From Jatrophihabitans sp. GAS493 (GTDB lineage: Bacteria; Actinomycetota; Actinomycetes; Mycobacteriales; Jatrophihabitantaceae), in assembly GCF_900230215.1 (NCBI RefSeq), contig NZ_LT907982.1:558001-622000 (forward strand): DNA of 64,000 nt, in the 5' to 3' direction. A program made the position numbers and the translations under genes. Numbering within the stretch: the first letter of the stretch is position 1; each line of letters begins with the position of its first letter. Positions 44,344 to 63,810 of this stretch are shown piece by piece. Below the pieces are notes generated by a model. The model was given only the letters and a program-made list of their open reading frames with translations. It had not been told where the DNA came from and did no database searches.

Positions 44344-44733
44344 ATGGCGCAGGCTGTCGGTAGTACGGCGATGCTGAAGTGCACCTTCGGCCTGGCCCCG
44401 TCGACCCTCAACGTGCTGCCGGCGGCCCGCGTGACCGTCGAGGGGAAACCTGCCGCGGCCATCGTGGACGACGCCCCGATGCTCAACATCCCGCCCTTCG
44501 GGATGTGCAACAGCCTGGCCAACCCGGTGGTCGCGGCCGCCACCGCGGCCGCCCTCGGCGTCCTCACCCCGATGCCCTGCCTGCCTGTCATCCCGGCCCC
44601 CTGGATCCCGCTCGCGCCGACCGTGCTGATCGGTGGCAAGCCGGCTCTGGTCTCCGGCTCGATGTGCACCTGCGCCTACGGCGGCGTCATAGATATCGGC
44701 TTCCCTGCAAGCATTCGCACCACTATCGGGTAA
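44344..44733 (+). CDS. PAAR-like (DUF4280) spike-tip protein
   Basis: A 129-residue protein of the DUF4280/PAAR-like type. Cysteines at 13, 55, 79, 108 and 110, and repeated hydrophobic turns (MLNIPPFGMCNSLANP, VLIGGKPALVSGSMCTCAYG), fit the sharp cone that caps a VgrG/gp5 spike and binds a metal. It lies at the head of the injection-system genes on the same strand, 182 bases before the sheath gene. AGGGGC precedes the ATG. Confidence 0.85.
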   Translation: MAQAVGSTAMLKCTFGLAPSTLNVLPAARVTVEGKPAAAIVDDAPMLNIPPFGMCNSLANPVVAAATAAALGVLTPMPCLPVIPAPWIPLAPTVLIGGKPALVSGSMCTCAYGGVIDIGFPASIRTTIG

Positions 44734-46533: not shown

Positions 46534-47010
46534 ATGCCCAACGACCTGATCAATACCGACCCGATCGTCGCCCAGAACTTCTTCCTCGCGATCGACGGCG
46601 AGCAGCTGCTGCTGTCTGGCGTCTCGGGCCTCGACCTGGAACTGGACGTCGTGACGATCCAGCAGAACGGCCCGAGCGGCAAGAAGCAAGCCATCAAGAC
46701 CCTCGGCAACTCGCTCAAGGTGCCGGATATCAGCATGACCCGGATGGCCCCGATGGACGCGATGAACGACCCGATCTGGAAGTGGTTCCACGCGGTCCGC
46801 GACGAAGGCTTCTCCGGGACCAAGCGCGAAGGTTCCCGTAAGAACGGATCGATCGTGCTCTATGACACCGCCTTCACCGAGATCGGCCGCTTCAACTTCT
46901 TCAACGGCTGGCCGAGCAAGATCTCGACCGATGGCTTGAGCACCGACTCGAACGATCCGGTCAAGGAGACCGTCACCCTGATCATCGAGAGGCTGGAGCG
47001 GATCAAGTAG
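46534..47010 (+). CDS. Inner tube protein (gp19-like), probable major tube
   Basis: A 158-residue tail-tube protein: NFFLAIDGEQLLLSGVSGLD, IQQNGPSGKKQAIKTLG, ISMTRMAPMD, FNFFNGWPSKI and VTLIIERLERI match the T4 gp19-like fold of phage and eCIS tubes. It stacks as hexamers inside the sheath. GGAG lies 8 bases before the ATG. The position directly after the sheath suggests the major tube subunit. Confidence 0.9.
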   Translation: MPNDLINTDPIVAQNFFLAIDGEQLLLSGVSGLDLELDVVTIQQNGPSGKKQAIKTLGNSLKVPDISMTRMAPMDAMNDPIWKWFHAVRDEGFSGTKREGSRKNGSIVLYDTAFTEIGRFNFFNGWPSKISTDGLSTDSNDPVKETVTLIIERLERIK

Positions 47011-47063
47011 TTCCAGTTCCGACTTATCTCTCGTGATTGACCCGCTCTGATTGGACGACCGCA

Positions 47064-47585
47064 GTGACCGAGCCGACGCTCCGGACCCGTTACGACTTCA
47101 CCCTGCCGAGGGGCTACGTCGACCACAACGGACGGCTGCAGAAGACCGGCACGATGCGGCTGGCGACGGCCCGCGACGAGCTCGAACCACTGCGCGACCC
47201 CTCGGTCTCCGGCCCGGACGACCCGCGACTGACCATCGTGGTGCTGGCCCGGGTAGTGGAGAAGCTCGGTGATCTCGAGCTCGTCACCACGCACGAGATC
47301 GAGGGGCTCTTCGCGGTCGACCTGGCCTTCTTGCAGGACTTCTACGGGGTTATCAACTTCGGTACCCAGGAGGAGTTCGAGGCTCTGCTGTCGGCCCAGC
47401 AGGGGACCGCGCTGCTGGGCTCCGCCCGTTCAGCTCCACCCGCCGCCCCCACCACGGCTGCGGCCGGCGGCGGGGGCGCGGCCGGCGACGGGGGTGTGAC
47501 CGACGAGGACGGCGCTGCGCTGCCCGAGACGACTGGCCGCTCGCTGCGATCTGCGGTCGAGGAGCTTCCTCGCCGGGCTCTGTGA
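47064..47585 (+). CDS. Phage-tail-assembly-type protein of eCIS loci
   Basis: A 173-residue protein. FTLPRGYVDHNGRLQKTGTM, RLATARDELEPLRDP, LARVVEKLG and IEGLFAVDLAFLQDFYGVIN are the pattern of the small tail-assembly protein found after the tube gene in actinobacterial and other eCIS clusters. It probably acts as a chaperone for tube or tail assembly. The C-terminal 55 residues are Gly/Ala-rich and disordered. The GTG at 47064 is preferred to a TTG at 47037. Confidence 0.78.
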   Translation: MTEPTLRTRYDFTLPRGYVDHNGRLQKTGTMRLATARDELEPLRDPSVSGPDDPRLTIVVLARVVEKLGDLELVTTHEIEGLFAVDLAFLQDFYGVINFGTQEEFEALLSAQQGTALLGSARSAPPAAPTTAAAGGGGAAGDGGVTDEDGAALPETTGRSLRSAVEELPRRAL

Positions 47586-47819: not shown

Positions 47820-48302
47820 ATGGCCTCGATAGATCCGCTCGGCGGCGAACCACCCACCGCGTCACGCTTCCTCTTCGAGGTGGACGGGGTCGAGATCGGC
47901 GTCTTCCGCGAGGTGACCGGCCTACAGGTGACCGTGGCTGTTCAGGAGTTCACCGAAGGTGGGCAGAACGGGTACGTCCACAAGTTGCCGGGGCGGATGA
48001 GCTGGCCGCACCTGGTCTTCCGACGCGGCGTGACCGCGAGCGACGCCCTCTTCAACTGGCTGGAGAAGTCCTCGGGCGAAGGCTTCGCCGGCAACCAGAG
48101 CAAGCTGGTCAAGGCCACCGGCGCGGTCACCGCGATCGACGCCAGTGGGGCCCGTCTGCGCGCCTGGAACTTCGCCGACGTCTTCCCGGTGCGCTGGAAG
48201 GGACCGGACTTCGAATCCGGCAGCAACGCCCCGCTGGAAGAGGAACTCGAAGTCGCCCACCATGGCTTCACGTCCCAGACTCAGCCCGCGGGCTCCGGAT
48301 GA
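47820..48302 (+). CDS. Second tube protein (gp19-like; tube initiator candidate)
   Basis: A 160-residue tube-fold protein: ASRFLFEVDGVEIGVFREVT, EFTEGGQNGYVHKLPGRMSW, PHLVFRRGVTASDALFNWLE, NAPLEEELEVAHHGF. eCIS clusters commonly carry two to three tube-like genes; the divergent one usually joins tube and baseplate. AAAGGGG precedes the ATG. Its stop overlaps the start of the large Pro-rich gene by 4 bases. Confidence 0.88.
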   Translation: MASIDPLGGEPPTASRFLFEVDGVEIGVFREVTGLQVTVAVQEFTEGGQNGYVHKLPGRMSWPHLVFRRGVTASDALFNWLEKSSGEGFAGNQSKLVKATGAVTAIDASGARLRAWNFADVFPVRWKGPDFESGSNAPLEEELEVAHHGFTSQTQPAGSG

Positions 48303-51300: not shown

Positions 51301-51733
51301 CGCGCCGGCCGCCGGTCCAGCGACCAGCGGTTCAGCGACCGCCGGCGCCGGCCACCGGGACGCCGGCCGGCCGTCGCTGCTGGAGTCCACCGCCAGCCTC
51401 TTCCAGGGCGGCGGAGCCTCCGGGGCCGATGCCCTCACTTCTTTCCTGCGCCGCTCCACCGGGTCAGCAGCGACGCCCCCAGCCCGACCGGCATCCCCCA
51501 TCGCTCGAAGCAGCGGGCCGGCTCAGCCCAGATCAGGAGGCGGTCCAATGGAGAGCGCAGAACCGATCCGTCGATTCCGGGACGGCTCGTTCGGACAGTC
51601 GGTGATACCCGAGAGCCGCCTCACCTCGGAGGACCTGGACGACCTGGCCGACCTGGTCGTCGACCGCATCGAGCGCCGGGTCATCGCCGAACTCGAGCGG
51701 CGGGGCCAGTACCGAATCCCGGGGGCCTACTGA
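48299..51733 (+). CDS. Very large Pro/Ala/Ser-rich eCIS-operon protein with short conserved C-terminus
   Basis: A 1144-residue protein embedded in the operon by 4-base and 1-base overlaps. Residues 1-180 are basic and partly ordered (RLTQRLRRPGPPIGRLRASG, RWWTPTEA, EQTWTPGGIAENLVATVAKV). Residues 180-1080 are low-complexity Pro/Ala/Ser/Thr, probably disordered, with DNA-level repeats. The last 60 residues are compact: FRDGSFGQSVIPESRLTSED, LADLVVDRIERRVIAELERR. I recall this helical tail in shorter proteins at this operon position elsewhere. Possible roles are a baseplate-linked tether, length control, or a carrier for cargo; none is shown by sequence. Confidence 0.75.
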   Translation: MSELDTEASPDAESGGMGSASGAEEPASFGERLTQRLRRPGPPIGRLRASGIGSVALASTRFATATGRPVPLRRLLAGPGELPVRRFADAGVRPPRWWTPTEAADPERDARTDAETPATAGRLLPSELPSRALPRAARQVPNEQTWTPGGIAENLVATVAKVRRLEEVSAAGPMGTGARARLMAPKPSPPPQPPPSPPSPRSSATPPPSPPPSPPSPPPSPRSSATPTPPTPSQPRQSSSPPPPGPAPAAHSTAAAPTSAPTSGSAEPRSAPAIGSAEPITVVRSALSPSTAPPPGSSPPSSPAASSPASPLPASRSGGSASPPPTASSVTTAASPSGTATAQPPIARLAVPSSPSASSSAIASPSGSASSAIPASGPYAFQRTATLGRFASVRRSAATSAGEAPHSATGNGGSGVAVAARPSAYLSASASGSAISQHELRRSWAPQPGSPSFAGRSSAGDASQPRASDPARTLRRAPGGLPEALTAATISSAVGVAPTPRIAPTPTPDSVDGTAPNPAAARPTLRSLPAGSGLDPGAPARAAIASDAVTAQSQAAQSQAAQSQAQPPGPAATAVTAQPQPNPLPTVIGRYSLPGTFVRRGTGSANSTGFMVDRSIRRSVAIGGPISPATSIAGQPVSPGGRAVGSSGGSPVVGTGPNPATPTAVPPAGSLARPPSSAPATDPPSAATPTSAPTLTAEPAPTAAERSATGDGPDGRRPTAQRRGSPLAPASAPASASASARLLPQSRTLVTGSAAPVPFTPGLAIHRLPLSAIVPPHPNAPAPAGRPTPPTRPQSGADGASSDPVPSGTRAQPTTAPTAPDRAIPAGSVAIRRSRTPTPTPPPPAAGQTATSTSTASGELMVGGRPRLESAFAAPDVIRPSALPNATPAGIGRAPVPLTTPRTTGARTTEVEPTASSATTASPRPASATITRRSAVSTSRVPSALPATSPSPLRRIAAAGNPSAAGYTMAPPRISVRPPLPPAASAAPPIPDSARRPESASAPAAGPATSGSATAGAGHRDAGRPSLLESTASLFQGGGASGADALTSFLRRSTGSAATPPARPASPIARSSGPAQPRSGGGPMESAEPIRRFRDGSFGQSVIPESRLTSEDLDDLADLVVDRIERRVIAELERRGQYRIPGAY
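48871..48979 (+). repeat. Repeats inside the Pro-rich gene
   Basis: A 32-base segment at 48885-48916 (beginning CACCGCCGTCACCGCGGTCC) recurs exactly at 48948-48979, with CCACCGCCGTCACCG motifs between. It encodes PPSPPSPRSSATPPP-like sequence. The repeat indicates growth by local duplication. Confidence 0.8.
49949..49993 (+). repeat. Three tandem 15-bp units in the Pro-rich gene
   Basis: GCTCAGAGTCAGGCG occurs three times in a row (one with a final C), giving AQSQAAQSQAAQSQA. Such units change copy number easily by slippage. Confidence 0.85.
51535..51550 (+). promoter_or_regulatory. Internal ribosome-binding site and in-frame ATG within the Pro-rich gene
   Basis: AGGAGG (51535-51540), a perfect Shine-Dalgarno, is 7 bases before ATG (51548-51550). 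The ATG is in frame with the 1144-residue protein. Translation from it would give a 61-residue product, exactly the conserved C-terminal part (51548-51733). The spacing is ideal. Confidence 0.6.
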
Positions 51734-52392
51734 TGGGTGCCTTGGAGAAGGCATTCCTGGAGATCGAGGGGGGTGAACGGGTGCCCTGCCTCTTCAACCC
51801 CGACTCCATCTCGGTCGGACGGCGCAACAACTGGGTCGGCAACCCGATGCCCGGAAAGGGTGTGCCGAAGCTGCGCTACTCCGGCGCCGACTCCGGATGG
51901 ATGCGGCTGCAGCTCATGTTCGACACGACCGACGTCGGCACCCCGGTCACCAAGTACACCGGCAAGATCCTCGGCCTGATGGACGTCGACCCGTCCATCG
52001 CCGGCACCGATGAGACCTCCAACAACGCCCGACCGCCCACCGTCACCTTCCACTGGGGTGACCTGCACTCCTTCGCCTGCGTGGTGATCGACCTCGGGCT
52101 CACCTTCACCTACTTCTCCTCGACCGGCGTCCCGCTGCGGGCTGAGATGAGCCTGGAACTACGGCAGTACGAACCCTCCAAAGCGTTCGGCCCGCAGAAC
52201 CCGACGTCCGGGACGCCGAAGCCGCACCGGGTGCATCGCATTCAACCCGGCGAGACGCTGGACCGGATCTCCGCGCGCTACTACGGCGACTCGACGCGCT
52301 GGCGGGCGCTGGCCGAGGTGAACGGCATCGAGGACCCGCTCACGCTGCGGCCGGGGTCGTTGTTGTCGGTGCCACGGATGGAGGGAAAGTGA
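51733..52392 (+). CDS. eCIS baseplate/tube LysM protein (CIS_tube domain, Afp7-like)
   Basis: A 219-residue protein. The N-terminal domain (1-155; ALEKAFLEIEGGERVPCLFN, PDSISVGRRNNW, TFHWGDLHSFACVV) matches the contractile-injection-system tube N-terminal family. A C-terminal LysM (about 165-215; HRVHRIQPGETLDRISARYY, WRALAEVNGIEDPLTLRPG) follows. Its counterpart in Afp/PVC and T4 (gp53-like) links the tube or spike hub to the wedges. It starts on the last base of the previous stop. Confidence 0.88.
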   Translation: MGALEKAFLEIEGGERVPCLFNPDSISVGRRNNWVGNPMPGKGVPKLRYSGADSGWMRLQLMFDTTDVGTPVTKYTGKILGLMDVDPSIAGTDETSNNARPPTVTFHWGDLHSFACVVIDLGLTFTYFSSTGVPLRAEMSLELRQYEPSKAFGPQNPTSGTPKPHRVHRIQPGETLDRISARYYGDSTRWRALAEVNGIEDPLTLRPGSLLSVPRMEGK

Positions 52393-54149
52393 CCGAGGTC
52401 CTCTCGCCGTATCTCACGGCCAACGGAGCGGAGTTGCCGACCAGCTGGTTGGCCGCACTCACCGCTATCCGGATCGAACGGGGGATCGGCGAGGTCGGGC
52501 GCGCAACGCTGACCTTCATCGACGAGAACTACGAACTGGCGACCCAGCGGCTCTTCAGCCTGGGTTCGACGGTCACCCTCGCCGCCGGCGACCGGACGGA
52601 GCTGATGCGCGGCGTCGTCACCGGAACCGGCATCGAGAGCGGCAGCTCCGGGGTGCCCCACCTGAGCGTTGTCGTCCATGAGGCGACCTTCCGGATGACC
52701 CGCAACAGCCAGAGCCGCAGCTTCGCGCAGGTGAAGTACTCCGACATCGTCAGCAAGCTGGCCAGCGAGCACGGGCTACAGGCCGACGTCGCCAGCAGTC
52801 CGGGGCTCGTGCCTTATCTGCTGCAGAGCGGCAGCGACTTCGACTTCCTCAACGCGGTGGTCGAGCGGGCCGGATTCGTCTGGTGGATGCACGAGGGCAC
52901 CCTCTTGGCCAAGCCTCGCGGCACCTCGTCCGGCTCACTCGTCACCACGACGATGGGAGAGGACCTGCTCGAGTACTCGGTGAGCGCCACCGCGCTGCGC
53001 CCGAACAAGGTCGTGGTCGGTGGGTGGGACGCGCGAAACCAGCAGGACCTGGTCGGCAGCGAGGCCGAGACCGCGACCACCTTCGTCCCGGACGCGACGA
53101 TCTTCGACGGCTACAAGTCGTCGAAGTCCCTGGGAGACGCCGTCTTCACCACAGCCGGTCCGACCCCGGCCGACGGGACCGAAGCCACCCTGCAGGCCCG
53201 TTCGATCATGAACGAACTCGCGGCCAGCGCCCTGGTCGCACGCGGCACCTGCCACGGCTCGGCCCTGCTGCGGCCGTCGGTCACCATCACGCTGGCCAAC
53301 GCCGGACCGGCCTCCGGGTCCTACCTCCTCACCCGGATCGAGCATCGCTACGACAGCCGCGGGTTCGAGACGCGGTTCACCGCCGGGGGCTACCAGCCGG
53401 CGACGCTGCTCGACACCCTCGGCGGCGGTCGGCGCAGTGACGGCGGCGGCCTCTCCTTCGCCCACCTGACCGTCGGGATCGTGACCGACGTCAACGACCC
53501 GGACAAGATGGGGTCGGTGAAGATCCGGTTCAACAGCATGGGCGCCGGAGTCGACGTGGGGAGCTCCTGGGCCCGGCTGATGACCGTCGGTGCCGGGGCC
53601 AACCGTGGCGTGGTCTTCCAGCCGGAGATCAATGACGAGGTGCTGGTCGCCTTCGAGGACGGCGACACCCGCCGTCCGGTGGTGCTCGGCGGTCTCTTCA
53701 GCGCCAAGAAGCCGCTGCCGAACTGGGCGGTGGAGGGTTCGGCCGTCTCGGCGCGGCGGATCACCTCACGAGACGGGCATTTCATCGAGTTCTCCGACGG
53801 AAGCGACCCGGCCACCAAGCACCTGAAGATGGAGCTGAAGTCCGGGCACCTGATCCGGCTCGGCGATGACAAGTTCGACATCGCCGTCAGCGCCGGCAAG
53901 CCGGTGGCGATCAAGGCCGGGGAGAGCACCTTCGTGATCGACGCCCAGGGGGATGTCACGATCACCGCCAACAACATCAATCTGAAGGCGAAGCAGAAGG
54001 TGAACATCGAGGGGCTCGAGGTGAACGTGAAGGCCCAGGTCAAGGCGTCGGTACAGGGCGTGCAGGTCGAGGTGAAGGGCAGCGGAACGGCTGAAGTCAG
54101 CGCCAGCGGCCCACTCACCCTCAAGGGCGCGATGGTGGCGATCAACTGA
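52389..54149 (+). CDS. VgrG-like spike protein
   Basis: A 586-residue spike. Residues 1-345 are the phage late-control-D/gp27-like hub (ERGIGEVGRATLTFIDENYE; LLQSGSDFDFLNAVVERAGF). Residues 357-437 are the gp5 OB-fold (VGIVTDVNDPDKMGSVKIRF; FQPEINDEVLVAFEDGDTRR). From about 520 a beta-helix of alternating V/T/I repeats (GDVTITANNINLKAKQKVNI) forms the trimeric needle ending in PLTLKGAMVAIN. It bears the PAAR-like tip. No extra effector domain is attached. The GTG start overlaps the previous stop by 4 bases. Confidence 0.92.
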   Translation: MTEVLSPYLTANGAELPTSWLAALTAIRIERGIGEVGRATLTFIDENYELATQRLFSLGSTVTLAAGDRTELMRGVVTGTGIESGSSGVPHLSVVVHEATFRMTRNSQSRSFAQVKYSDIVSKLASEHGLQADVASSPGLVPYLLQSGSDFDFLNAVVERAGFVWWMHEGTLLAKPRGTSSGSLVTTTMGEDLLEYSVSATALRPNKVVVGGWDARNQQDLVGSEAETATTFVPDATIFDGYKSSKSLGDAVFTTAGPTPADGTEATLQARSIMNELAASALVARGTCHGSALLRPSVTITLANAGPASGSYLLTRIEHRYDSRGFETRFTAGGYQPATLLDTLGGGRRSDGGGLSFAHLTVGIVTDVNDPDKMGSVKIRFNSMGAGVDVGSSWARLMTVGAGANRGVVFQPEINDEVLVAFEDGDTRRPVVLGGLFSAKKPLPNWAVEGSAVSARRITSRDGHFIEFSDGSDPATKHLKMELKSGHLIRLGDDKFDIAVSAGKPVAIKAGESTFVIDAQGDVTITANNINLKAKQKVNIEGLEVNVKAQVKASVQGVQVEVKGSGTAEVSASGPLTLKGAMVAIN

Positions 54150-54592
54150 TGACCGAGATGGTCCCGCGCCCGACTGGCCCCCTCAGCCAATACGACGCCA
54201 CCTTCGTCGGCCGGGGATTCAGCTGGCCGATGGAGGTCGATCAGACCGGCTCGATCAAGCTGACCGACACCGCCGAGGACATCGACCGATCGATCCAGAT
54301 CGTGCTCCTCACCGCGCCCGGGGAGCGGCTGATGCGCCCGCAGTTCGGCTGCCGCATCTGGGATCTGCTCTTTGAACCGATCACCGCGAATCTGCTCGGC
54401 CTCATCGCCGAGGCCGTCCGGGACGCGCTGGCCCAGTGGGAGCCGCGGATCGAGGTCGAGGAGGTCGAGCCGTCGGCCGACGACGACGAGGCAGGCCTGG
54501 TGCGGATCAAGATCGCCTACCGGGTGCGGGCGACCAACGACCGCCGCAACCTGGTCTACCCCTTCTACGTCATCCCGCACGATGCCGAGTAG
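54149..54592 (+). CDS. gp25-like baseplate wedge protein
   Basis: A 147-residue GPW/gp25 protein: SIKLTDTAEDIDRSIQIVLL, TAPGERLMRPQFGCRIWDLL, FEPITANLLGLIAEAVRDAL with the conserved WEPRIEVEEVE. It nucleates sheath polymerisation on the baseplate. It shares one base with the VgrG stop (TGATG). Confidence 0.92.
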   Translation: MTEMVPRPTGPLSQYDATFVGRGFSWPMEVDQTGSIKLTDTAEDIDRSIQIVLLTAPGERLMRPQFGCRIWDLLFEPITANLLGLIAEAVRDALAQWEPRIEVEEVEPSADDDEAGLVRIKIAYRVRATNDRRNLVYPFYVIPHDAE

Positions 54593-54599
54593 CCGCCCC

Positions 54600-54653
54600 A
54601 TGCCGAGTTACGTCCCGAACATCGACAAGCTGAACCAGAAGCGAGACCACTGA
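54600..54653 (+). CDS. Possible 17-residue ORF between gp25 and the wedge protein
   Basis: ATG at 54600 opens MPSYVPNIDKLNQKRDH and stops at 54653 in a TGATG overlapping the next start. It may be a leader peptide for translational coupling or a real small part; no ribosome site is obvious. The call rests on the overlap only. Confidence 0.3.
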   Translation: MPSYVPNIDKLNQKRDH

Positions 54654-56602
54654 TGCCGCTACCCGCCCCCAATCTCGACGACCGCCGGTTCCAGGACATC
54701 GTCGACGAGGCCAAGCGTCTCATCCCGCGCTACTGCCCCGAGTGGACCAACCACAACGTCTCCGACCCCGGCGTCGCGCTCATCGAGCTCTTCGCCTGGA
54801 TGAGCGAGATGGTGCTGTTCCGGGTGAACCAGGTTCCGGAGCGCCTCTACGTGCACTTCCTGAACCTGGTCGGCGTCGAGCCGTTCCCGCCGTCGGTCTC
54901 CCGCGTGGACCTGACGTTCTGGCTGACCGCGGTGCTGGACACCGCGGTGGTGGTACCGGCCAACTCGGAGGTGACCACGGCCGGCTCCGTCGGTACCGAG
55001 GAGCCGGTGGTCTTCACCACCGCGCAGGAACTGGTCATCGCACCGCCGGAACTGCAGTACGCCAAGACTGTGACGATGGGCGACGAGCGGGTCTCCGACG
55101 TCTGGGACGACCTTCGTTTCGACCCGCTGGGCGTGCGCTGCTTCGCCTCACCGACACTGACGCCGGGCGACGGCTTCTACCTCGGCTTCGCGCGCAGTCT
55201 GGCCGGCACCATGATCCGGCTGCGGCTGGAGGCCGAGGCAGACGGGATCGGCGTCGACCCGCGCAACCCCCCGCTGCTCTGGGAGATCTGGAACGGCGAG
55301 GCCTGGATCACCGCACTGGTTCACGAGGACGGGACGGGGGGCCTCAACCGGGCCGGTGACATCGTGCTCATCGTGCCGAGCGAGCACGAGCTCCTCACCG
55401 TCGGAAACACCCCGGCCTACTGGTTGCGGGCCCGGCTGCTCTCCCCCCGCCCGGGGCAGCCCACCTACCAGGCCTCCCCCCGGGTCCGCTCGGTCCTCGC
55501 GGCCACCCTCGGCGGCACCGTCGCCGCCGAGCACGCCGAGGTGGTCGGCTCGGAGGTGATCGGACGCAGCGACGGCAGCCCGGCCCAGGTCTTCCGGGTC
55601 GCCCGCACACCGGTGCTGCCGCGGCGCCCCGGTGAGCACGTGCAGGTCATCGACACCGACGGCACGGCCGACTGGCAGGAGGTGCCGGACTTCTCCAGCT
55701 CCACCCCGCGCGACCGTCACTACGTCTGGGACAGCGGCAGCGGCGTCATCCGGTTCGGGCCACGGGTGCGCTACCCCGACGGCTCGGTGCGCCAGCACGG
55801 CGCAGTGCCCCGCGACGGCGGCCGCGTCGTCGTCACCGGCTATCGCCACGGAGGTGGCGCGCGGGGCAACGTCGGCGCCCGGACACTCACCGTGCCGAGG
55901 TCGGCATTGCCTTATATTCGTGGGGTAATCAACCTCAGCGCGGCCAGTGGCGGGGTCGACGCGGAGAGCATCGCCGAGGCGAAGATCCGCGGCCCGCTGA
56001 CGCTGCGGACCGGGCAGCGGGCCGTCACCGCCGGAGACTTCGAGCGCCTCACCCTGGAGTCCTCGACCGAGGTGGCGCGGGCTCGCTGCCTACCGGCCAG
56101 CGACGGCAACGGTTCGGTGCGCGTGCTGGTCGTGCCTCAGGTGCGGCGTGGCGGCGAGCTGCACCAACTCGACGACTTCGCCATCGCCGCCCCACTGATG
56201 CGCAGCATCAGCGAGCATCTCGACGCGCACCGACTGGTCGGGACCTCGATCCAGGTAGCCACCCCGTACTACCAGGGCGTCTCGGTGGTAGCACTGGTGC
56301 ACACCACACCCGGCCGCCCGGCGGCGCTGGTGCGGCAGCGGGCTCAGGACGCGATCACCCGCTACGTCGATCCCCTCACCGGGGGCCCGGACGGCACCGG
56401 GTGGCCTTTCGACGCCGACATCAACTCGGCCGTGGTGACGCAGCTGCTGGAGTCGGTTGATGGGGTGGAACGGGTCGAGGAGGCGCTGCTGTTCGAGTAC
56501 GACCTGCGTACCGGCCGCCGTCTCGGCTCCGGCAAGGACGTCATCCGCCTCGACCAGCACTCGCTCTTCCTCTCCGCCGCCCACCAGATCGTGGTCCGAT
56601 GA
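54653..56602 (+). CDS. Baseplate wedge protein (gpJ/Afp11-like)
   Basis: A 649-residue protein of the putative baseplate assembly family (TIGR02243-like). RRFQDIVDEAKRLIPRYCPE and NHNVSDPGVALIELFAWMSE are the N-terminal signature; the middle is beta-rich; LRTGQRAVTAGDFERLTLES and VATPYYQGVSVVALVHTTPG lie in the gpJ-like C-terminal part. It forms the wedges around the spike with gp25 and the next protein. It begins within the TGATG of the small ORF. Confidence 0.9.
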   Translation: MPLPAPNLDDRRFQDIVDEAKRLIPRYCPEWTNHNVSDPGVALIELFAWMSEMVLFRVNQVPERLYVHFLNLVGVEPFPPSVSRVDLTFWLTAVLDTAVVVPANSEVTTAGSVGTEEPVVFTTAQELVIAPPELQYAKTVTMGDERVSDVWDDLRFDPLGVRCFASPTLTPGDGFYLGFARSLAGTMIRLRLEAEADGIGVDPRNPPLLWEIWNGEAWITALVHEDGTGGLNRAGDIVLIVPSEHELLTVGNTPAYWLRARLLSPRPGQPTYQASPRVRSVLAATLGGTVAAEHAEVVGSEVIGRSDGSPAQVFRVARTPVLPRRPGEHVQVIDTDGTADWQEVPDFSSSTPRDRHYVWDSGSGVIRFGPRVRYPDGSVRQHGAVPRDGGRVVVTGYRHGGGARGNVGARTLTVPRSALPYIRGVINLSAASGGVDAESIAEAKIRGPLTLRTGQRAVTAGDFERLTLESSTEVARARCLPASDGNGSVRVLVVPQVRRGGELHQLDDFAIAAPLMRSISEHLDAHRLVGTSIQVATPYYQGVSVVALVHTTPGRPAALVRQRAQDAITRYVDPLTGGPDGTGWPFDADINSAVVTQLLESVDGVERVEEALLFEYDLRTGRRLGSGKDVIRLDQHSLFLSAAHQIVVR

Positions 56603-57321
56603 GCCAGCCCGTCGTCTCCGTTCCCTCCGCCTCCGGCAAGGCCGTCGACGGGCGCCCGGGCATCCGGTTGTCTCGGCGCAGCCCGCAGTGGATGCTCAAC
56701 CAGCTGCCGGTCGGGATGCTGGGCAGTGACTTCTTCGTCCGCTTCGTCTCGCTCTTCCAGGACCTCGGCACCGGGCTGCTCGAAGACGCCGACAACATCG
56801 ACTACCTGGCCGACGTGTCGGTGGCACCGGATGCGATGGTGCGCTGGCTCGGGTCCTGGATCGGGATGAACTCCCTCGACCCTTCACTGCCGGATGACCT
56901 GCAGCGACGCATCGTCGACGGCTCGGCGCAGACGCTGGCCTGGCGGGGCACGGTCACCGGTCTGCGTCGCTTCCTGGAACTCACCACCGGCGGGCCGGCC
57001 GAGGTGGTGGACGGCGGCGGCGTCTGGCGCGAAGGGGATGCACCGACCGACACGGCCTGGGTGCGCATGTCGGTCGACTCGACCGGCTGGCTGCTGGAGG
57101 CCGACTTCGTAGAGCTTGTACGGGACGAGATCCCGGCGCACGTCCGGGCCGAACTCTGGGTTCAGGATCGACGCGTCTGGAGTTCCGGCGGCGAGGTGGC
57201 CTCGCAGCTGGAGGCGGCCAGCGCAACCAGCTCTTCGCGGGCCCTGCCGATCGCCCCGACACCGGATGAGGAGCAGACTGGACCCGATGGCCAGTCGGCC
57301 CGACCGCAGGAGAATCCGTGA
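56599..57321 (+). CDS. gpI-like baseplate/tail protein (Afp12-like)
   Basis: A 240-residue protein of the phage-tail I type (TIGR02242-like). LNQLPVGMLGSDFFVRFVSL, FQDLGTGLLEDADNIDYLAD, VSVAPDAMVRWLGSWIGMNS and AQTLAWRGTVTGLRRFLELT are the family pattern. It completes the wedge heterotrimer. The C-terminal 40 residues are disordered. It overlaps the previous gene by 4 bases and the next by 4 bases. Confidence 0.88.
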   Translation: MSQPVVSVPSASGKAVDGRPGIRLSRRSPQWMLNQLPVGMLGSDFFVRFVSLFQDLGTGLLEDADNIDYLADVSVAPDAMVRWLGSWIGMNSLDPSLPDDLQRRIVDGSAQTLAWRGTVTGLRRFLELTTGGPAEVVDGGGVWREGDAPTDTAWVRMSVDSTGWLLEADFVELVRDEIPAHVRAELWVQDRRVWSSGGEVASQLEAASATSSSRALPIAPTPDEEQTGPDGQSARPQENP

Positions 57322-57962
57322 CCGATCCCAGCCGGGCCCCCCAGCACCAGTGGATCCAGCCAGCCGAGGGCCCCGCAGTCTCGGGCGAGCCCGCGGTGAC
57401 GGTAGCTGAACTGGTCAGCTCCGACTCGGAACTGACCATGACGATCCCCGTGGTCGAGGGGTACCGAGCCAGTGACCAGCCGCCGTCCCGGGTCGTCGCC
57501 GTGGCCCAGTCGGCCGCCCAGTTCCTGACCTGCCCGGAGTGCGGGACGAAGGCGATGGTGACGGTGAGCCGCCGGGAGTCCGGCGACTTCTGCCGCAAGT
57601 GCGACTACCCGCTCTTCTGGGTCCCGTCGCGGGTCGAGCTGGATCGCTCCGACACATCAGAGGCGTCGCTGCGCCGGCTGCCGGGGACGGTCGGACGGGC
57701 CACCGTCGCGTCGCTGGCCTGCCCGCACTGCGCCGAGCCGAACGCCGTGAACGCGGTGACCTGCATTCGCTGCGGACGGCTGATGCGGGTCGAGGTGATA
57801 CCCCTGCCGCCCCCGGAGCCGGTGTATGTCGCCCCCGAGCCGTTGCCGGAGCCGGAACCTGAGCCGAGGGGGCTTCCGTGGTGGGCGTGGGCGTTGATCT
57901 TCCTCGGATTGACCCTGGTCTCGACCGGTGTCGCGATCGCGATCCTTTACGCGGTCGACTGA
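57318..57962 (+). CDS. Double zinc-ribbon protein with C-terminal membrane helix, last gene of eCIS operon
   Basis: A 214-residue protein with an N-terminal disordered part (1-65) and two zinc ribbons: C72/C75 with C92/C95 (CPECG, CRKC) and C135/C138 with C149/C152 (CPHC, CIRC). A Pro/Glu-rich spacer and one tail-anchor helix (about 188-211; WWAWALIFLGLTLVSTGVA) follow. The overlap with the gpI-like gene shows cotranslation. A soluble injection particle does not need a membrane protein, so this may tie it to the membrane. Streptomyces CIS work describes a membrane partner (CisA) at a comparable functional point; homology is not claimed. Confidence 0.8.
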   Translation: MTDPSRAPQHQWIQPAEGPAVSGEPAVTVAELVSSDSELTMTIPVVEGYRASDQPPSRVVAVAQSAAQFLTCPECGTKAMVTVSRRESGDFCRKCDYPLFWVPSRVELDRSDTSEASLRRLPGTVGRATVASLACPHCAEPNAVNAVTCIRCGRLMRVEVIPLPPPEPVYVAPEPLPEPEPEPRGLPWWAWALIFLGLTLVSTGVAIAILYAVD

Positions 57963-57999: not shown

Positions 58000-60900
58000 T
58001 CAGCTCGGGGCGGCCAGGGTATACGCGGTCGTCGCAGTGCCGGTCACGGTTACGGTGCCGGTGGCGGTGAGCGCCCCCGCCGTCGCCGTCACCGTCCAGG
58101 TCCCCGGCGGGAGGCCGGAGAAGGCGATCGGCCCGTTGTTGGCCGCGTCGATCGGCGTCGGGTACTTCGGGGAGCCCTGCCCGTCGGAGAAGGCGATGGT
58201 GACGCTCTGATGGGCGGCGCTGGTTGCCCCGGTGAGGGTCAGCGAGATGCCCCCGGAGACTTCACTGAGGGCCACCGTAGCTGCGGTCGCCGCCGTTCTC
58301 GAGGTGGTGAGGGCAGCGGTCGAGGCGGCCGGCCAGGTCGTGGTGTCGGCCGGGGTGGCGGTCACGGTGTAGGCCGCGTGCTTAACCCAGACCGCGGTGG
58401 CGCCACCGGCTCCGACGGAGAAGCTCCCAAAGGCCGGCACCGCGCTGCCCCCGGCCCCGGCGCTGATACTCAACGCGACCGTGGTGATGGCGGCGTCCGG
58501 GGCGACGGCGGTCGCGTTCACCCGGAGCTCGAGTTGCTCCTCGTCCAGCGTGTAGCGGGCGTCCACCTCGCTCGTACCCGAGCCCGGGACGGTGACCGAG
58601 GTGTCGGCGCAGCTGAGCTGGGCGACAGTCGGCGGGGCGCTGGTCAGCGAAATCGTGCCGTAGTGGTTAATCGCATTAGCCAACGTCACCGCCCAGCAGC
58701 CGTACGGGACGGTGTTGAAGGTCGAGGCGTAGACGTTCGGGGTCGCGGTCGCGGCCAATCCACTGCCGGTGAGAGTTGCGTTGGCCGGATTGTCGCCGGT
58801 GTCGGCCGCGGTCAGGGTCGGCACCCACCCGGTGAGGTCGTCACCGGCCGCGGCGACGACCGAGATGACCACCTGCTGGCCGACCCGGCTAAGAGTTGTA
58901 GCTAAAGGCAGGATCGGGGGGTTGCTGTGGTTCACCGAGACGCTCTGCTGGCTCAACAGGTAGCCGTACCGGGTCATCTGCACGGTGAAGGTGCCGTCCG
59001 GCACCGTACCGAAGGTGAACTTCCCACCTCCGGCGCTCGGGTGGGTGAGGGTGGCGCCGTCGGTGCCCTTGGCCGGCGTGAAAGTGCCGTTCGAGACCGT
59101 CCCGATCGCCACTGTGACACCGTCGAGCGGGGTGGCCGTCGCGTCCCCGTTCTGCAGTCCGCTCACCACTCCGGTGACGAAGTTGCTGTTCAAGGTGGCG
59201 GCCAGGGTGAAGGTCTGGGGCGAGGCGCCGACGTTGACGGTGACCTGGGTCGACGACGTCGCCGCACCGCCGCCGCTCACCTGCAGCGAGTAGGGACCGG
59301 GCAGCACCGCGGCGAAGTCGTACTCCGGCGCGCTCGCGGGCCCGGCCGCCGTGCCGGTCAGGGTCGTCCCGTTCGCGGTTAGCGTCACCGACAAGCCGGC
59401 GAGGGCATCACCGGACGGGCCGGTCACCGTGACGTGGTAGCTCACCGGGGTCGGGAGCAGTTTCACGTCAGCCGCCGTGTCGGCCGTCGGGGAGGCGGGG
59501 ACGGCCACCACCACGCCCGGGAGCGCATGCGCGGGGGCCCCGCTGGGGACGTCGGGGAGGGCGTAGCCGAAGGCGGTCGCGGTGAGCAGCCAGGTGCCGC
59601 TGCTCAGACCCTGGAGCTGCGCGGTGCCGGTGATGCTGTAGGCGCCGAGGTTTCCGGTGGTCACCGAGAACGGGGTGCCCGAGACCGAGGTGCAGTAGGT
59701 GTCCGCGCCGTCGACTGCGGTGGCGGCGCACTTGGTGGCGGTTACGGTGGCACCGTTGAGCGGCTGGGTCAGCGTGGTCGAGGTCCCCACCGCACCGGAG
59801 AGGGTGCCGGTGATCGCGCCGAGTCTGGTGAGGCTCGCAGTGCAATCGGCCGGTGCGCCGACCGGAATCGTGATGCTGGTGGCGGCGCTGCTGCCGGCCG
59901 GGCAGCTGAGTGAGCCGGTGCCGTTACCGAAGGACTCGAAGAGGTAGCCCGGGGCCTGGATCGTCACGGCGTAGTGCGAGTCGCCGGCGGTGAGACCGGT
60001 GAAGGTCACCGTGTTGGTGCTGGAATCGGTCGTCTTGGTCTGTGGGTTCGCGCCGTTGTCGGTGAGGGTGAAGCTGGCCCCGGTGACCGCAACCGCCCCG
60101 GCCGCGGCCCGGATGACCAGTGACCCGAACTCGGCCATGGTGAAGCCGGCCGGAACCGCGCAGGCCGTCCCGACCGCGCAGCTGAAGCTGATGGTGGCGC
60201 TGCTGAAGCCGGCCAGGTTGGCGATGAGGGTGTAACCACCGGGGCGGATCTTGTTGACCGCGGTGTACTCGCTGTCGGTCCAGGTCAACGCCCCGCTCGC
60301 CGCGACACTGACGCTGATGGCTCCGCTGCCGGCCGGCTGCTGGGTGACCTGGACCCGGGTCGCGGCCAGCGAGGGGGCCGGGACGGTGGTAACCCCGACG
60401 ATCCCGCTGAAGTCGTCCGGCAGCGGCTGCAGCGGGAAGGCGTTGGTGACGCCGGCGTTCACCAGCTTGCTGGGGACGGCGGAGCTCTGGTAGCCGGGGG
60501 CGGAGATCTGGGCCGAGATCTGGCTGTAGATCGGCGAGTAGATCCGCCGCGCCGAGGTGGCCACGCCGGCGCAGGCGCCGCTGGTGGCCGGCAGTGTGGA
60601 GGTGGTGGTGAGGGCGAAGCAGCCGTTGCCGTCGGTGGTGATGGTGACCGGTGAGCCGACGATCGGCGAGCCGCCGTTGTAGCCGACCACGCCGGTGAGG
60701 GTGACGGTCGATCCGCCCACTCCGTTGCCGTCCGTGTCGGTGATCTGCCCGACGACGGCGGCCAGCGGATCGGGCAGGAGCGTTGCCGTCACCTCCTGGT
60801 CGTAGCCCAGGTTGGTGACCGTCCCCGAGATGGCTTTGCCGGAGACGGTGGCGGCGAAGTGGTAGCTGCCCGGTGCCAACCCGGTCAGCCTCAGCTGCCC

Positions 60901-63810
60901 GTTCGAGTTCGGGGCCGTCGTCGCCGGCGGGGGGTTGCCCGGACCGGTGATGGTCACGACGGTGCCGTCCGGCGCGGCGGTGAGGGTGGTGCCCGTCGCG
61001 TCCGGGCCGAGCAGGGTGAGATCGACCCGTCCGAGGCGGTGCAGCGCGGTGCTGAACGGCTTCACCTCGCCCAACCCGAAGGTCAGTTTGAGCGGTCCGA
61101 CCCCGACATACTCCGAACCGCTCGGGGTCAGGATGTAGATGTCGTAGGTTCCGTGGGCCGGCAATCGGAGGTCGTACTGGCTGGTGGCCGCATCGACCGG
61201 CGTGCTCACCAGGCCGCTGCCGCAGCCGGTCGGGGCGGCCGCGCCCGAGGTCACCGCGACCACGCAGAGACCGGTGGCCGCGCCGACGAAGGTCGTCACC
61301 GTTCCGGTGAGATGCGGCGCCGGGTAGAGGGTCACCGTCGGCACGGTGACCGTCGGAGTCGGTGTCGTCGGCGCCCCCAGCGGAACTTGGACGCCCACGA
61401 CCGCGTCCTCATACCCCTCCGCGCTCACCTTCATCTTGTGCAGGCCGGCCGCCAGCCCGCAGGCCGGGACGGACGTGCCGGGCGGAACCAGGTAACCGGT
61501 CACCGGGGCCACTGTGCCGACGGCGGTGCTGAGCGTGCCATCACCGGCCACCACGCAGGTTGTGGTCTTGCCGGACTCGCCGAGCAGGGTGAGTGTGATC
61601 GCGCAGGGGGTCACCGCGTTGCCGTGCGCGTCGGTGCAGTTGATCGGGCCGCTGGTGCGCGAATCCTGCACGCCCTGGACCTGGATCAGCGCGGTGCTGG
61701 GCAGGCCGCCGTTGGGTGCGGCGACCAGCGTCAGGTTGACCTTCGTCTGCCCGGCCGCGTTCACCGCCGGCACCGCCGCGAACTGCTGCGTATAGCCGAA
61801 GAGCGTCGCCGTCAGCACGTAGTCCTCGCCCGGCTCCACGCCGTCGAAGAGGAAGCTGCCGTCGGAGTTGGCCAGGATTTTGTAGGTGTGCTCGGAGTTG
61901 CTCAGCACCAGGCCGGCGCTGTCGGCCTTTCCGGGAGCGGGCACGGTGAGCACGCCGGAGACCGAACCGGTGGATCTGCGCAGTGTGGTGTTGAGGGTGG
62001 CCTGGGACTGCCCGGCGGTCAGCGTCACCTTGCCGGTCTGCGGCTGGTAGCCGTCGGCGGAGATGGTGACGCTGTAGCTGCCCGGCGCCGGGAGGGCCGG
62101 GAGGGTGTAGTTACCGATCGGACCGTCGGTGATGGTGGTAGCGGTGCGGGTGCTGGTGCCGTCGGTGATGGTGACGGTGGCCCCGCCGAGGCCGCCCGAG
62201 GCCCCCTGGACGTTGCCGACCAGGGACGCCACGCCGACCCGCAGGGTGAGCGAGGCAGTGGCGGCGCCGCCGGCGGTCAGCACCACCACCCTCGATTCGG
62301 TGCCCAGCCCACTGCGGGTCGCGGTCACCAGGTAGGTACTCGGTGTCGAGAGGCCGCTGATGCTCCAGTCGCCAACCCCGGATCCGGTTGAGGTAGTGCT
62401 GGTGGTCAGCGTGTTGGTGCCGTCGGTGATGGTGATCTGGGCCCCACCGACGCCGCCACCGGGACCGGCGATCCGGCCGCTGAGGCTGCCCAGCCCGGAG
62501 GCCAGTGTCACCTTCAGCGGCTGGGTGGCCACCGACTCGGCGGAGTTCACCACATAGCGCTGCGTCTGGTAGCCCGGCTTGGCGAACGTGAGCAGGTAGT
62601 ACCCGGGGGCGTTCACCCCGGCAAACGACCACGCGCCGTCAGCGCCGGTGACCATGGAGCGGGTCTGGGCCGGCGGTGGATCGACCAGCAGCGCCGACTG
62701 TGGCACCAGCCCGTGCACGTTCAGGGACTGGGTGGTGAGCCCGACCGGGGTGGCCGACTCGGCCTCCTCATCGACCAGGGAGGTCGGCCGGATGGCGACG
62801 TCGACTCCAGCTGGGGCGTTGCCGAGGACGCTGCCATTGAGCTGGACCTCGTTGGCCGACGCGGGGGACGCGCCGCCCGCTGAACCGGCCGAGCCGCTGG
62901 CCGCAGCGCCGCCGGAACCACCAGAACCACCGGCACCACCGGAACCACCGGAACCGGAACCACTCGAACCGGAACCACCGGACGGCGACGCGGTGCCGGC
63001 CGAGGCGGAGGCGGCCGGCGGTCCGGCGATCTCCTGGTTCTTGGTGTTCTGGGCAAGCCGGGGGATCGCTATCAAGGCGAGCGCGATCCAGGCGGCGACC
63101 AGCGCCGCCAGCAGGGCCACCTTCGTTCCGCCCGGACCGAGAATCGCCTTCTCGGTAAGGGATCCCTCGGCGTAGCGGGCGGCCCCGGCGCTGCGGGCGG
63201 TGACCGTATACGCGTGCCGGGCCCGCTGCCCGAACAGCCGCGGACGGGCCACCCGCAACTGACCCTTGACCCGGGTCACCGTCCCCGGCTCCAGCACCAG
63301 ACGCGAATGGGACAGGTGCACGTGGGCGCGGCTCGAGGACTGAACGCCGAGTGCGACCTCGAGCGGGGTCGAGCCGGTGTTGGTGAGCAGTACCGAGACG
63401 CGGCGCTGCAGCCGGGCCTGGGCATCGACCGGCTGCAGGTCGACCTTGAGCTGCCCGGGCGCGTCGACGACCAGCATTACCTCGGCCATGGCGGTCGGCG
63501 AGGTGACCTGCTGGGTGAGCGGGTCGATGGCCTGCACCGCGATCACCAGCGGGTACCGGGCCGGAACCGTCCCGGCCGACGGGCTGACCACCAACTGCAG
63601 GGCGGCGTCCTGGCCTGGCATCAGCGGTGCGCTGCGCCGGGGCAGCGGCAGCCACTCGGCGTCGACCCCGAGCGCGGTGACGGTAAGGATGCGCGGCTCA
63701 GCCTCGTGATTGGTGACCCGGACCTCGAGGGCGATCGGCATCCCGGCGCTGGTCCGCGAGATCGGCAGGACGGCGATTCCGGGCGGCGACCCCGGTCGGC
63801 GCTCGCTCAT
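58000..63810 (-). CDS. Giant membrane-anchored carboxypeptidase-regulatory-like repeat protein
   Basis: A 1936-residue protein. Residues 1-225 form two immunoglobulin-like or CARDB-like domains (VRVTNHEAEPRILTVTALGV; LLTNTGSTPLEVALGVQSSS). A single membrane helix lies at about 230-251 (KVALLAALVAAWIALALIAI), then a Ser/Gly linker. About a dozen or more prealbumin-like repeats follow (GVxGATVTITDGT, LPAPGSYSVTISADGYQ, GLAPGSYHFAATVSG). No N-terminal signal is seen, so the repeats are probably outside the membrane. It is convergent to the injection operon; its ATG overlaps the upstream gene's stop by 4 bases. Confidence 0.82.
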   Translation of the reverse strand: MSERRPGSPPGIAVLPISRTSAGMPIALEVRVTNHEAEPRILTVTALGVDAEWLPLPRRSAPLMPGQDAALQLVVSPSAGTVPARYPLVIAVQAIDPLTQQVTSPTAMAEVMLVVDAPGQLKVDLQPVDAQARLQRRVSVLLTNTGSTPLEVALGVQSSSRAHVHLSHSRLVLEPGTVTRVKGQLRVARPRLFGQRARHAYTVTARSAGAARYAEGSLTEKAILGPGGTKVALLAALVAAWIALALIAIPRLAQNTKNQEIAGPPAASASAGTASPSGGSGSSGSGSGGSGGAGGSGGSGGAAASGSAGSAGGASPASANEVQLNGSVLGNAPAGVDVAIRPTSLVDEEAESATPVGLTTQSLNVHGLVPQSALLVDPPPAQTRSMVTGADGAWSFAGVNAPGYYLLTFAKPGYQTQRYVVNSAESVATQPLKVTLASGLGSLSGRIAGPGGGVGGAQITITDGTNTLTTSTTSTGSGVGDWSISGLSTPSTYLVTATRSGLGTESRVVVLTAGGAATASLTLRVGVASLVGNVQGASGGLGGATVTITDGTSTRTATTITDGPIGNYTLPALPAPGSYSVTISADGYQPQTGKVTLTAGQSQATLNTTLRRSTGSVSGVLTVPAPGKADSAGLVLSNSEHTYKILANSDGSFLFDGVEPGEDYVLTATLFGYTQQFAAVPAVNAAGQTKVNLTLVAAPNGGLPSTALIQVQGVQDSRTSGPINCTDAHGNAVTPCAITLTLLGESGKTTTCVVAGDGTLSTAVGTVAPVTGYLVPPGTSVPACGLAAGLHKMKVSAEGYEDAVVGVQVPLGAPTTPTPTVTVPTVTLYPAPHLTGTVTTFVGAATGLCVVAVTSGAAAPTGCGSGLVSTPVDAATSQYDLRLPAHGTYDIYILTPSGSEYVGVGPLKLTFGLGEVKPFSTALHRLGRVDLTLLGPDATGTTLTAAPDGTVVTITGPGNPPPATTAPNSNGQLRLTGLAPGSYHFAATVSGKAISGTVTNLGYDQEVTATLLPDPLAAVVGQITDTDGNGVGGSTVTLTGVVGYNGGSPIVGSPVTITTDGNGCFALTTTSTLPATSGACAGVATSARRIYSPIYSQISAQISAPGYQSSAVPSKLVNAGVTNAFPLQPLPDDFSGIVGVTTVPAPSLAATRVQVTQQPAGSGAISVSVAASGALTWTDSEYTAVNKIRPGGYTLIANLAGFSSATISFSCAVGTACAVPAGFTMAEFGSLVIRAAAGAVAVTGASFTLTDNGANPQTKTTDSSTNTVTFTGLTAGDSHYAVTIQAPGYLFESFGNGTGSLSCPAGSSAATSITIPVGAPADCTASLTRLGAITGTLSGAVGTSTTLTQPLNGATVTATKCAATAVDGADTYCTSVSGTPFSVTTGNLGAYSITGTAQLQGLSSGTWLLTATAFGYALPDVPSGAPAHALPGVVVAVPASPTADTAADVKLLPTPVSYHVTVTGPSGDALAGLSVTLTANGTTLTGTAAGPASAPEYDFAAVLPGPYSLQVSGGGAATSSTQVTVNVGASPQTFTLAATLNSNFVTGVVSGLQNGDATATPLDGVTVAIGTVSNGTFTPAKGTDGATLTHPSAGGGKFTFGTVPDGTFTVQMTRYGYLLSQQSVSVNHSNPPILPLATTLSRVGQQVVISVVAAAGDDLTGWVPTLTAADTGDNPANATLTGSGLAATATPNVYASTFNTVPYGCWAVTLANAINHYGTISLTSAPPTVAQLSCADTSVTVPGSGTSEVDARYTLDEEQLELRVNATAVAPDAAITTVALSISAGAGGSAVPAFGSFSVGAGGATAVWVKHAAYTVTATPADTTTWPAASTAALTTSRTAATAATVALSEVSGGISLTLTGATSAAHQSVTIAFSDGQGSPKYPTPIDAANNGPIAFSGLPPGTWTVTATAGALTATGTVTVTGTATTAYTLAAPS
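62908..62980 (-). repeat. Ser/Gly-linker coding repeat
   Basis: A run of GGAACCACC-type units encoding SGGSGGAGGSGG-like linker just after the membrane helix of the giant protein. Low-complexity DNA of this type is prone to length change. Confidence 0.75.

Follow-up and report, generated by a model that had tools for sequence, protein, structure and literature searches.

The window, a stretch of 64,000 nucleotides from Jatrophihabitans sp. GAS493, holds a contractile-injection-system (CIS) operon whose final gene encodes a predicted tail-anchored double zinc-finger protein (hereafter ZR), which raises the question of whether this protein links the injection machine to the cytoplasmic membrane. 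The first-pass annotation had pointed to a membrane partner with such a role in Streptomyces, and this agrees with the account in PMC12237407, according to which contraction in S. coelicolor needs CisA (SCO4242), a protein with one helix, a cytoplasmic N-terminus and an extracytoplasmic domain. Here we favour, with somewhat better than even confidence, the reading that ZR serves a cytoplasmic CIS as a membrane adaptor, a minimal counterpart of CisA whose zinc fingers would bind the baseplate. A search of titles and abstracts in the open-licence literature found no paper on the ZR family.

Table 1. Genes of the CIS operon, its convergent neighbour and the segments of the ZR protein, with positions counted along the window.
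Feature	Position	Strand	Evidence or remark
DUF4280 / PAAR-like spike tip	44344..44733	+	
Sheath, Cis2	44916..46490	+	
Tube protein, Cis1a-like	46534..47010	+	
Small operon protein	47037..47585	+	weak match to phage tail assembly chaperone
Second tube protein, Cis1b-like	47820..48302	+	
Ala/Pro/Ser-rich operon protein, 1144 aa	48299..51733	+	no match in Pfam or NCBIfam
CIS_tube + LysM, Cis7	51733..52392	+	
VgrG-like spike, Cis8	52389..54149	+	
gp25-like wedge, Cis9	54149..54592	+	
Baseplate_J wedge, Cis11	54653..56602	+	TIGR02243 E 3e-126
Tail_P2_I (gpI-like) baseplate wedge, Cis12	56599..57321	+	Pfam PF09684 E 7.4e-8, TIGR02242 E 4.8e-15
ZR protein (predicted tail-anchored double zinc-finger protein), 214 aa, GTG start	57318..57962	+	ORF and conservation
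ZR variable N-terminal stretch, residues 1-64	57318..57509	+	
ZR predicted zinc finger 1, residues 70-101, TCPECG...DFCRKCDYPLFW	57525..57620	+	two strands in model
ZR linker motif LRRLPGTVGR, residues 118-127	57669..57698	+	conserved; low model confidence
ZR predicted zinc finger 2, residues 133-156, CPHCAEPN...CIRCG	57714..57785	+	conservation, model
ZR Pro/Glu-rich spacer, residues 160-186	57795..57875	+	
ZR predicted C-terminal transmembrane helix, residues 188-213	57879..57956	+	hydropathy; model
CarboxypepD_reg-repeat protein, 1936 aa, convergent with the operon	58000..63810	-	recurrent companion of the system

The upstream neighbours of the ZR gene are CIS genes by Pfam and PHROGs (Table 1), and its placement as the last gene of the operon, proposed in the first-pass annotation, is confirmed by the next gene, that of the companion protein, which lies downstream on the opposite strand. 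The wedge ORF stops with a TGA and overlaps the ZR start by four nucleotides, and the overlap is exactly four nucleotides in 32 of the 58 relatives (out of 80) for which both ends could be placed, a count that favours this outcome because the start nearest to the stop was picked. The same annotation had ZR translated together with the gpI-like wedge; the overlap stands, and co-translation is therefore plausible. The Ala/Pro/Ser-rich product encoded between the tube and Cis7 genes could be a tape-measure-like or a disordered lumen protein. In a motif scan of the window, no ORF of at least 100 aa carried the stricter Walker A motif; no ORF of at least 300 aa carried a Walker A motif in seven of eight further loci (L018, L021, L023-L027 and L029), L025 having one at its edge, and the AAA+ ATPase known from other CIS clusters may be missing or encoded elsewhere.

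The ZR protein carries CxxC pairs at residues 72, 92, 135 and 149, a stretch (residues 157-187) that is 58% proline and glutamate, and a top 19-residue hydropathy window at residues 192-210 (2.43), four residues short of the C-terminus, so that the four cysteine pairs, the Pro/Glu spacer and the single C-terminal helix described earlier are all present in the ORF. Four or more CxxC pairs arose in 0 of 20,000 shuffles of the protein, and a C-terminal hydropathy window above 2.0 in 111 of 20,000. No Pfam zinc-ribbon model reaches its curated cut-off on ZR, the DZR match (E 3.5e-5) scoring 24.3 bits where 27.3 are required. Metal binding is better supported by the recurrence of the eight cysteines, which are kept by all 13 copies in related genomes (copies that were not selected by pattern) and whose pattern fits 78 of 80 further relatives; we thus predict from the sequences that ZR binds metal through two zinc fingers. 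Membrane insertion by the C-terminal helix is likewise a prediction, based on hydropathy and the structure model. A helix was called in 73 of 80 relatives, followed by a tail of 0-11 residues, and in 70 of 75 ZR ORFs compared with 0 of 288 control ORFs from the same loci (gp25, 76; Cis11, 78; Cis12, 60; Cis7, 74). Six of the seven relatives without a called helix were read by eye, L118 not being among them: a weaker hydrophobic stretch lies at the end of ZR in L108, L117, L123, L152 and L153, and L146 runs out of frame past finger 1. An insertion interrupts finger 2 in L140.

The number of residues preceding the first cysteine pair varies from 5 to 438 among the relatives when the longest ORF is taken, and the shortest proteins, of 139-149 aa, begin nearly at finger 1, so that the long N-terminal part of ZR is dispensable. 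The core was compared in a 71-row alignment (the window, 66 of the 80 scan loci and four relatives, with near copies omitted), from which L140 and L146 were excluded for deviating from the eight-cysteine pattern. Selection therefore accounts in part for the invariant cysteines, though not for the other invariant residues. Besides the cysteines, P10, F28, D33, P35, L36, F37 and W38 are invariant in the finger 1 core, including its end motif Dx-PLFW, as are R57, P59, G60 and G63 of the linker (RxPGxxG) and a glutamate and an arginine in finger 2. AlphaFold models of the core improved from a mean pLDDT of 74 with 13 rows to a pLDDT of 87 (pTM 0.37) with 71 rows, and the 71-row model comprises two small fingers, each of two strands, a poorly defined linker and a single long helix (residues 125-150 of the core, block pLDDT 95-98). 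Given the pTM of 0.37, use of the model was restricted to the helix and the local folds of the fingers. The linker block reached a pLDDT of 40-52 with 13 rows and 62-65 with 71 rows, and a linker that is conserved and modelled as folding poorly by itself is what would be expected of a docking motif. A Foldseek search with the ZR model yielded no match with an E-value of 0.001 or lower, and the best hit of a PDB sequence search was no better than E 0.0048. A promoter and terminator scan near the end of the gene gave one weak terminator-like site, located inside the gene.

Among 61 related genomes, ZR is found in 13, the window genome included, with every copy directly behind cis12; three weak protein matches (G000:C1:646414, G009:C359 and G033:C17) were judged low-complexity or chance and excluded from the counts. 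A Cis11 of at least 68% identity occurs in 15 of the 61, and in the two of these from which ZR is absent (G022 and G013) it sits at a contig end. The scan of species genomes matched 85 ZR relatives, 80 of which were kept, all Actinomycetota by title; the 80 loci are named records, many of them metagenome bins and some cultured strains. Whether ZR accompanies eCIS operons in other genomes had been set beforehand as a check, and CIS genes adjoin it at all 80 loci, in 79 of which cis11 and cis12 precede it in the same orientation. At L106, a metagenome contig, ZR is present and no gp25, cis11 or cis12 match was found between the spike and the ZR gene, which may reflect an assembly error or a decayed system. 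Class-wide and phylum-wide samples contain ZR in 11 of 394 and 8 of 396 genomes, respectively, each time within 1 kb of a Cis11 (11/11 and 8/8); these samples and the related genomes overlap, the window genome being among the shared ones, so that the counts are not additive. In 72,556 plasmid and 50,697 phage records, tblastn with the window ZR protein gave no match at E 0.001.

In a quick tree of 129 distinct Cis11 sequences from 143 loci, 81 ZR rows and one cut row form one clade (SH-aLRT 99), next to a clade of 30 CisA rows, 11 rows without adaptor and three cut rows, with three more long-branch rows without adaptor; loss of ZR is invisible in most of its ZR rows, because ZR itself had fetched them. 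A more careful, midpoint-rooted tree of 67 rows (48 of the quick-tree rows, places from the phylum sample and the window) has a clade of 38 rows with and two without ZR (support 100/99) versus 21 CisA rows and six without. No ZR gene was found within the 2.5 and 6 kb fetched for the two exceptions, G734 (basal) and G519 (nested), so the gene can be absent from members of the clade or located elsewhere. Adaptor type was set by hand for eight ZR loci whose starts lie far upstream, whose helices are weak or whose flanks are short, and for L035, which is one-fingered and CisA-like. At least four genomes carry both Cis11 lineages, namely G006 and G652 with a ZR and a CisA type, G025 with a ZR type and an adaptor-less system, and G013 with one Cis11 of each lineage, cut at contig ends. 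ZR marks an actinobacterial CIS clade that is wide outside Streptomyces, whose systems may act inside the cell and not as released particles.

As a reduced CisA-like adaptor, ZR would be fixed in the cytoplasmic membrane by its C-terminal helix with both zinc fingers on the cytoplasmic side, and the fingers together with the RxPG linker would bind to the baseplate wedge (Cis11/Cis12) on its outer face. In this way ZR would bring the loaded particle to the membrane or hold it there, baseplate-first, and baseplate contact at the membrane would then release sheath contraction. Because ZR lacks an outside domain, any trigger would have to act from within the cytoplasm, and the amount of the protein, the state of the membrane and the zinc or redox state of the cysteines are candidates. 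With its 80 loci, the family would represent a natural minimal version of such an adaptor, and it predicts that baseplate binding resides in the fingers and anchoring in the helix, with the outside domain only tuning the signal.

The main rival reading is that ZR is a standing part of the baseplate, with the particle assembled at the membrane, in the manner of type VI secretion or of the thylakoid-anchored CIS, and firing outward through the envelope without self-killing. Both readings predict a membrane location and contact with the wedge, and they differ in whether ZR belongs to the resting particle. Membership would fit the presence of ZR in every ZR-clade system of the class sample (11 of 11) and in most of those in the phylum sample (8 of 10), compared with the 30 CisA, 11 adaptor-less and three cut rows of the neighbouring clade, as well as the frequent four-nucleotide overlap, like that of a subunit made in step with the wedge, and the lack of a sensor domain; for the Streptomyces protein, one study detected SCO4242 by mass spectrometry in each of its three particle purifications (PMC10020575), and CisA peptides are reported from crude preparations of stressed cells (PMC12237407). 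However, the latter source describes Streptomyces particles as free in the cytoplasm and an extended-particle cryo-EM structure without CisA, and the constancy of ZR in the quick tree is to be read with the way in which most of its rows were fetched. We regard a standing baseplate part as unlikely.

Less room is left for readings in which ZR does not dock the particle at all. It could be cargo, a helix-bearing effector that the particle carries and delivers in the manner of the one-helix Sco4256-4258 proteins, and one-helix CIS effectors are indeed described in Streptomyces (PMC10066040), but ZR lies behind the wedge genes with a highly conserved core, no toxin-like domain was found in it with Pfam, PHROGs or NCBIfam, and a better candidate, the companion protein, adjoins it, so that we consider this improbable. 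Zinc fingers are common in regulators, and sub-threshold matches to the Brz zinc ribbon and to the phage transcription regulator family phrog_603 (E 0.077) might suggest a membrane-bound sensor of expression or assembly; the constant linkage to baseplate genes and the lack of a DNA-binding domain above threshold in the same three collections speak against it and make it highly improbable. The small size, the single helix and the position at the end of a phage-like operon would also suit an accessory of release or lysis that frees the particles, yet ZR matches no family of holins or lysis proteins in Pfam, PHROGs or NCBIfam, and the conserved fingers and linker suggest a binding role, which makes this the least probable of the readings weighed here.

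Known systems offer several points of comparison. Finger 2 of ZR has the spacing C-x2-C-x3-N-x6-C-x2-C, which we take to resemble the NZF consensus of RanBP2/NZF-type fingers. Weak Pfam matches to DZR for ZR and to Zn_ribbon_RanBP for one relative, and short Foldseek overlays of NZF fingers on ZR at E 1 or worse, stand beside the lack of a Pfam match above curated cut-offs and of a significant fold match, and scores of this kind are not sufficient to assign such small fingers. The gene position is shared with the eCIS tail fibres (Afp13/Pvc13, eBAP1-5), which sit directly behind Tail_P2_I or baseplate genes in about 90% of fibre-bearing loci in the survey of PMC12923769, whose stated scope does not extend to fibre-less loci. 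In contrast to these fibres, ZR has a putative membrane helix, only 214 aa and no fibre or lectin domain that we could find; as the Pfam, PHROGs and NCBIfam scans gave neither a baseplate anchor domain nor a receptor-binding shaft, a tail fibre reading was set low. The thylakoid CIS anchor and the T6SS membrane complex, which link a baseplate to a membrane as described in PMC12237407, are likened to ZR by role only.

The companion protein invites a comparison of its own. In it, an N-terminal part of about 230 residues is followed by a single hydrophobic helix near residue 231 and then by many CarboxypepD_reg-like repeats. Of the 74 ZR loci that have 300 bases or more of downstream DNA, 47 show a match there to some part of the protein, a few of them to the repeat region alone, and the N-terminal domain with the helix was found in 38 of 80 loci. 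A profile of this domain and helix also matches beside CisA-clade systems (L035, E 2e-33; L040, E 1e-30; L186 and L185), and an S. clavuligerus plasmid carries, some 17 kb away from CisA, a gene matched by the companion-like protein of L035. By description, this layout resembles that published for the Sco4256-type CIS effectors, which have a conserved N-terminal domain, a helix and, in many, a variable domain (PMC10066040, PMC10020575), and the companion is a candidate for a giant Sco4256-like effector or partner, whereas ZR departs from that description with its helix at the very end and zinc fingers before it.

The closest comparison is with CisA, which PMC10066040 reports as absent in CIS-negative Streptomyces. 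For SCO4242, PMC10020575 describes a cysteine-rich, possibly zinc-binding stretch before the helix and suggests it as the site of baseplate attachment; binding of CisA to the baseplate could not be demonstrated, as PMC12237407 explains, because its expression is toxic in E. coli. In the class sample we fetched 38 Cis11 places, omitting ZR carriers, places already covered, the weakest partial ones and three that sit at the end of a contig (two in G386 and one in G097), and a CisA-type gene lies directly behind cis12 in 24 of them. Several second-lineage loci of the related genomes likewise have a longer protein with fingers, helix and C-terminal domain behind the wedge genes, and on two named Streptomyces plasmids a CisA-type gene follows cis11 and cis12, in one case annotated as "zinc ribbon domain-containing protein". 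A second finger nearer the N-terminus was found in CisA-like proteins, 28 of 34 having two fingers by pattern. These proteins vary, some in L181-L188 and other CisA-clade loci being one-fingered, and three loci counted among the adaptor-less rows of the CisA clade (L182, L183 and L188) do encode a protein with one finger and one helix, at about 5 kb downstream of Cis11. In L041 (G053), both the CisA-like gene and Cis11 look broken by stops or frame changes. Where scanned (L033, L035, L037, L040 and L041), the CisA-like C-terminal domain matches NADase-discoidin / F5/8 type C models, compared with the solute- or sugar-binding similarity given in the literature consulted.

In sequence the kinship is weak but suggestive. 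A pairwise profile comparison of the ZR core with CisA finger 2 plus helix (17 of 24 CisA rows) gave a probability of 97.7 over 75 columns. Of the 24 class-sample genomes with only weak ZR-profile matches, five have the match inside a CisA-type gene behind Cis11, where it covers finger 2 and the helix in G334, G293, G151 and G242 and lies on finger 1 in G414. Conversely, the CisA finger-2-plus-helix profile recovers ZR in 13 of 13 genomes (E 6e-10 to 3), spanning finger and helix in eight and ranking it best in the genome in three; in the window genome ZR comes third (E 0.093), after two better-scoring places. Finger 1 of ZR matches CisA finger 2 at 95% and CisA finger 1, some rows of which are badly cut, at 68%, a preference that is as expected if zinc fingers match fingers generally. 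The motif FCxxCxxxLxW is present in 77 of 80 ZR and 25 of 34 CisA-like proteins, against 15 of 63 background ORFs with adaptor copies still in and 1 of 43 after stricter removal (the CisA-like frame of L041), the remainder being mostly chance ORFs; the background being so poor, the motif is not taken as proof of a shared finger 1.

The likeness to the Streptomyces membrane partner drawn in the first-pass annotation thus holds for gene position and for fingers followed by a helix, and does not hold for the extracytoplasmic domain, which ZR lacks; in sequence it is no more than suggestive. Shared are the gene directly behind cis11/cis12, the order of finger 1 (often FCxxCxxxLxW), finger 2 (CxxCxxxN...CxxC) and one helix, and the cysteine-rich, presumably zinc-binding stretch just upstream of that helix. 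CisA alone continues into a conserved extracytoplasmic domain of about 150-160 residues, whereas the ZR chain stops after the helix; the fingers of CisA are about 50-500 residues apart, compared with 39 residues and an RxPG linker in ZR, and its basic juxtamembrane stretch has no counterpart seen in ZR. Taken together, ZR and CisA quite probably share descent, and convergent use of zinc fingers is a possible source of the same layout. More tentatively, and with somewhat less than even confidence, we propose that the ZR-type systems, found outside Streptomyces in Cellulomonas, Nocardioides, Nakamurella, Jiangella and Acidimicrobiia, could form a branch of cytoplasmic, membrane-docked CIS armed and fired by a two-finger tail-anchored adaptor without extracytoplasmic sensor, in which case CisA would be this core with an extracytoplasmic domain added later, and self-directed CIS would not be confined to the multicellular Streptomyces.
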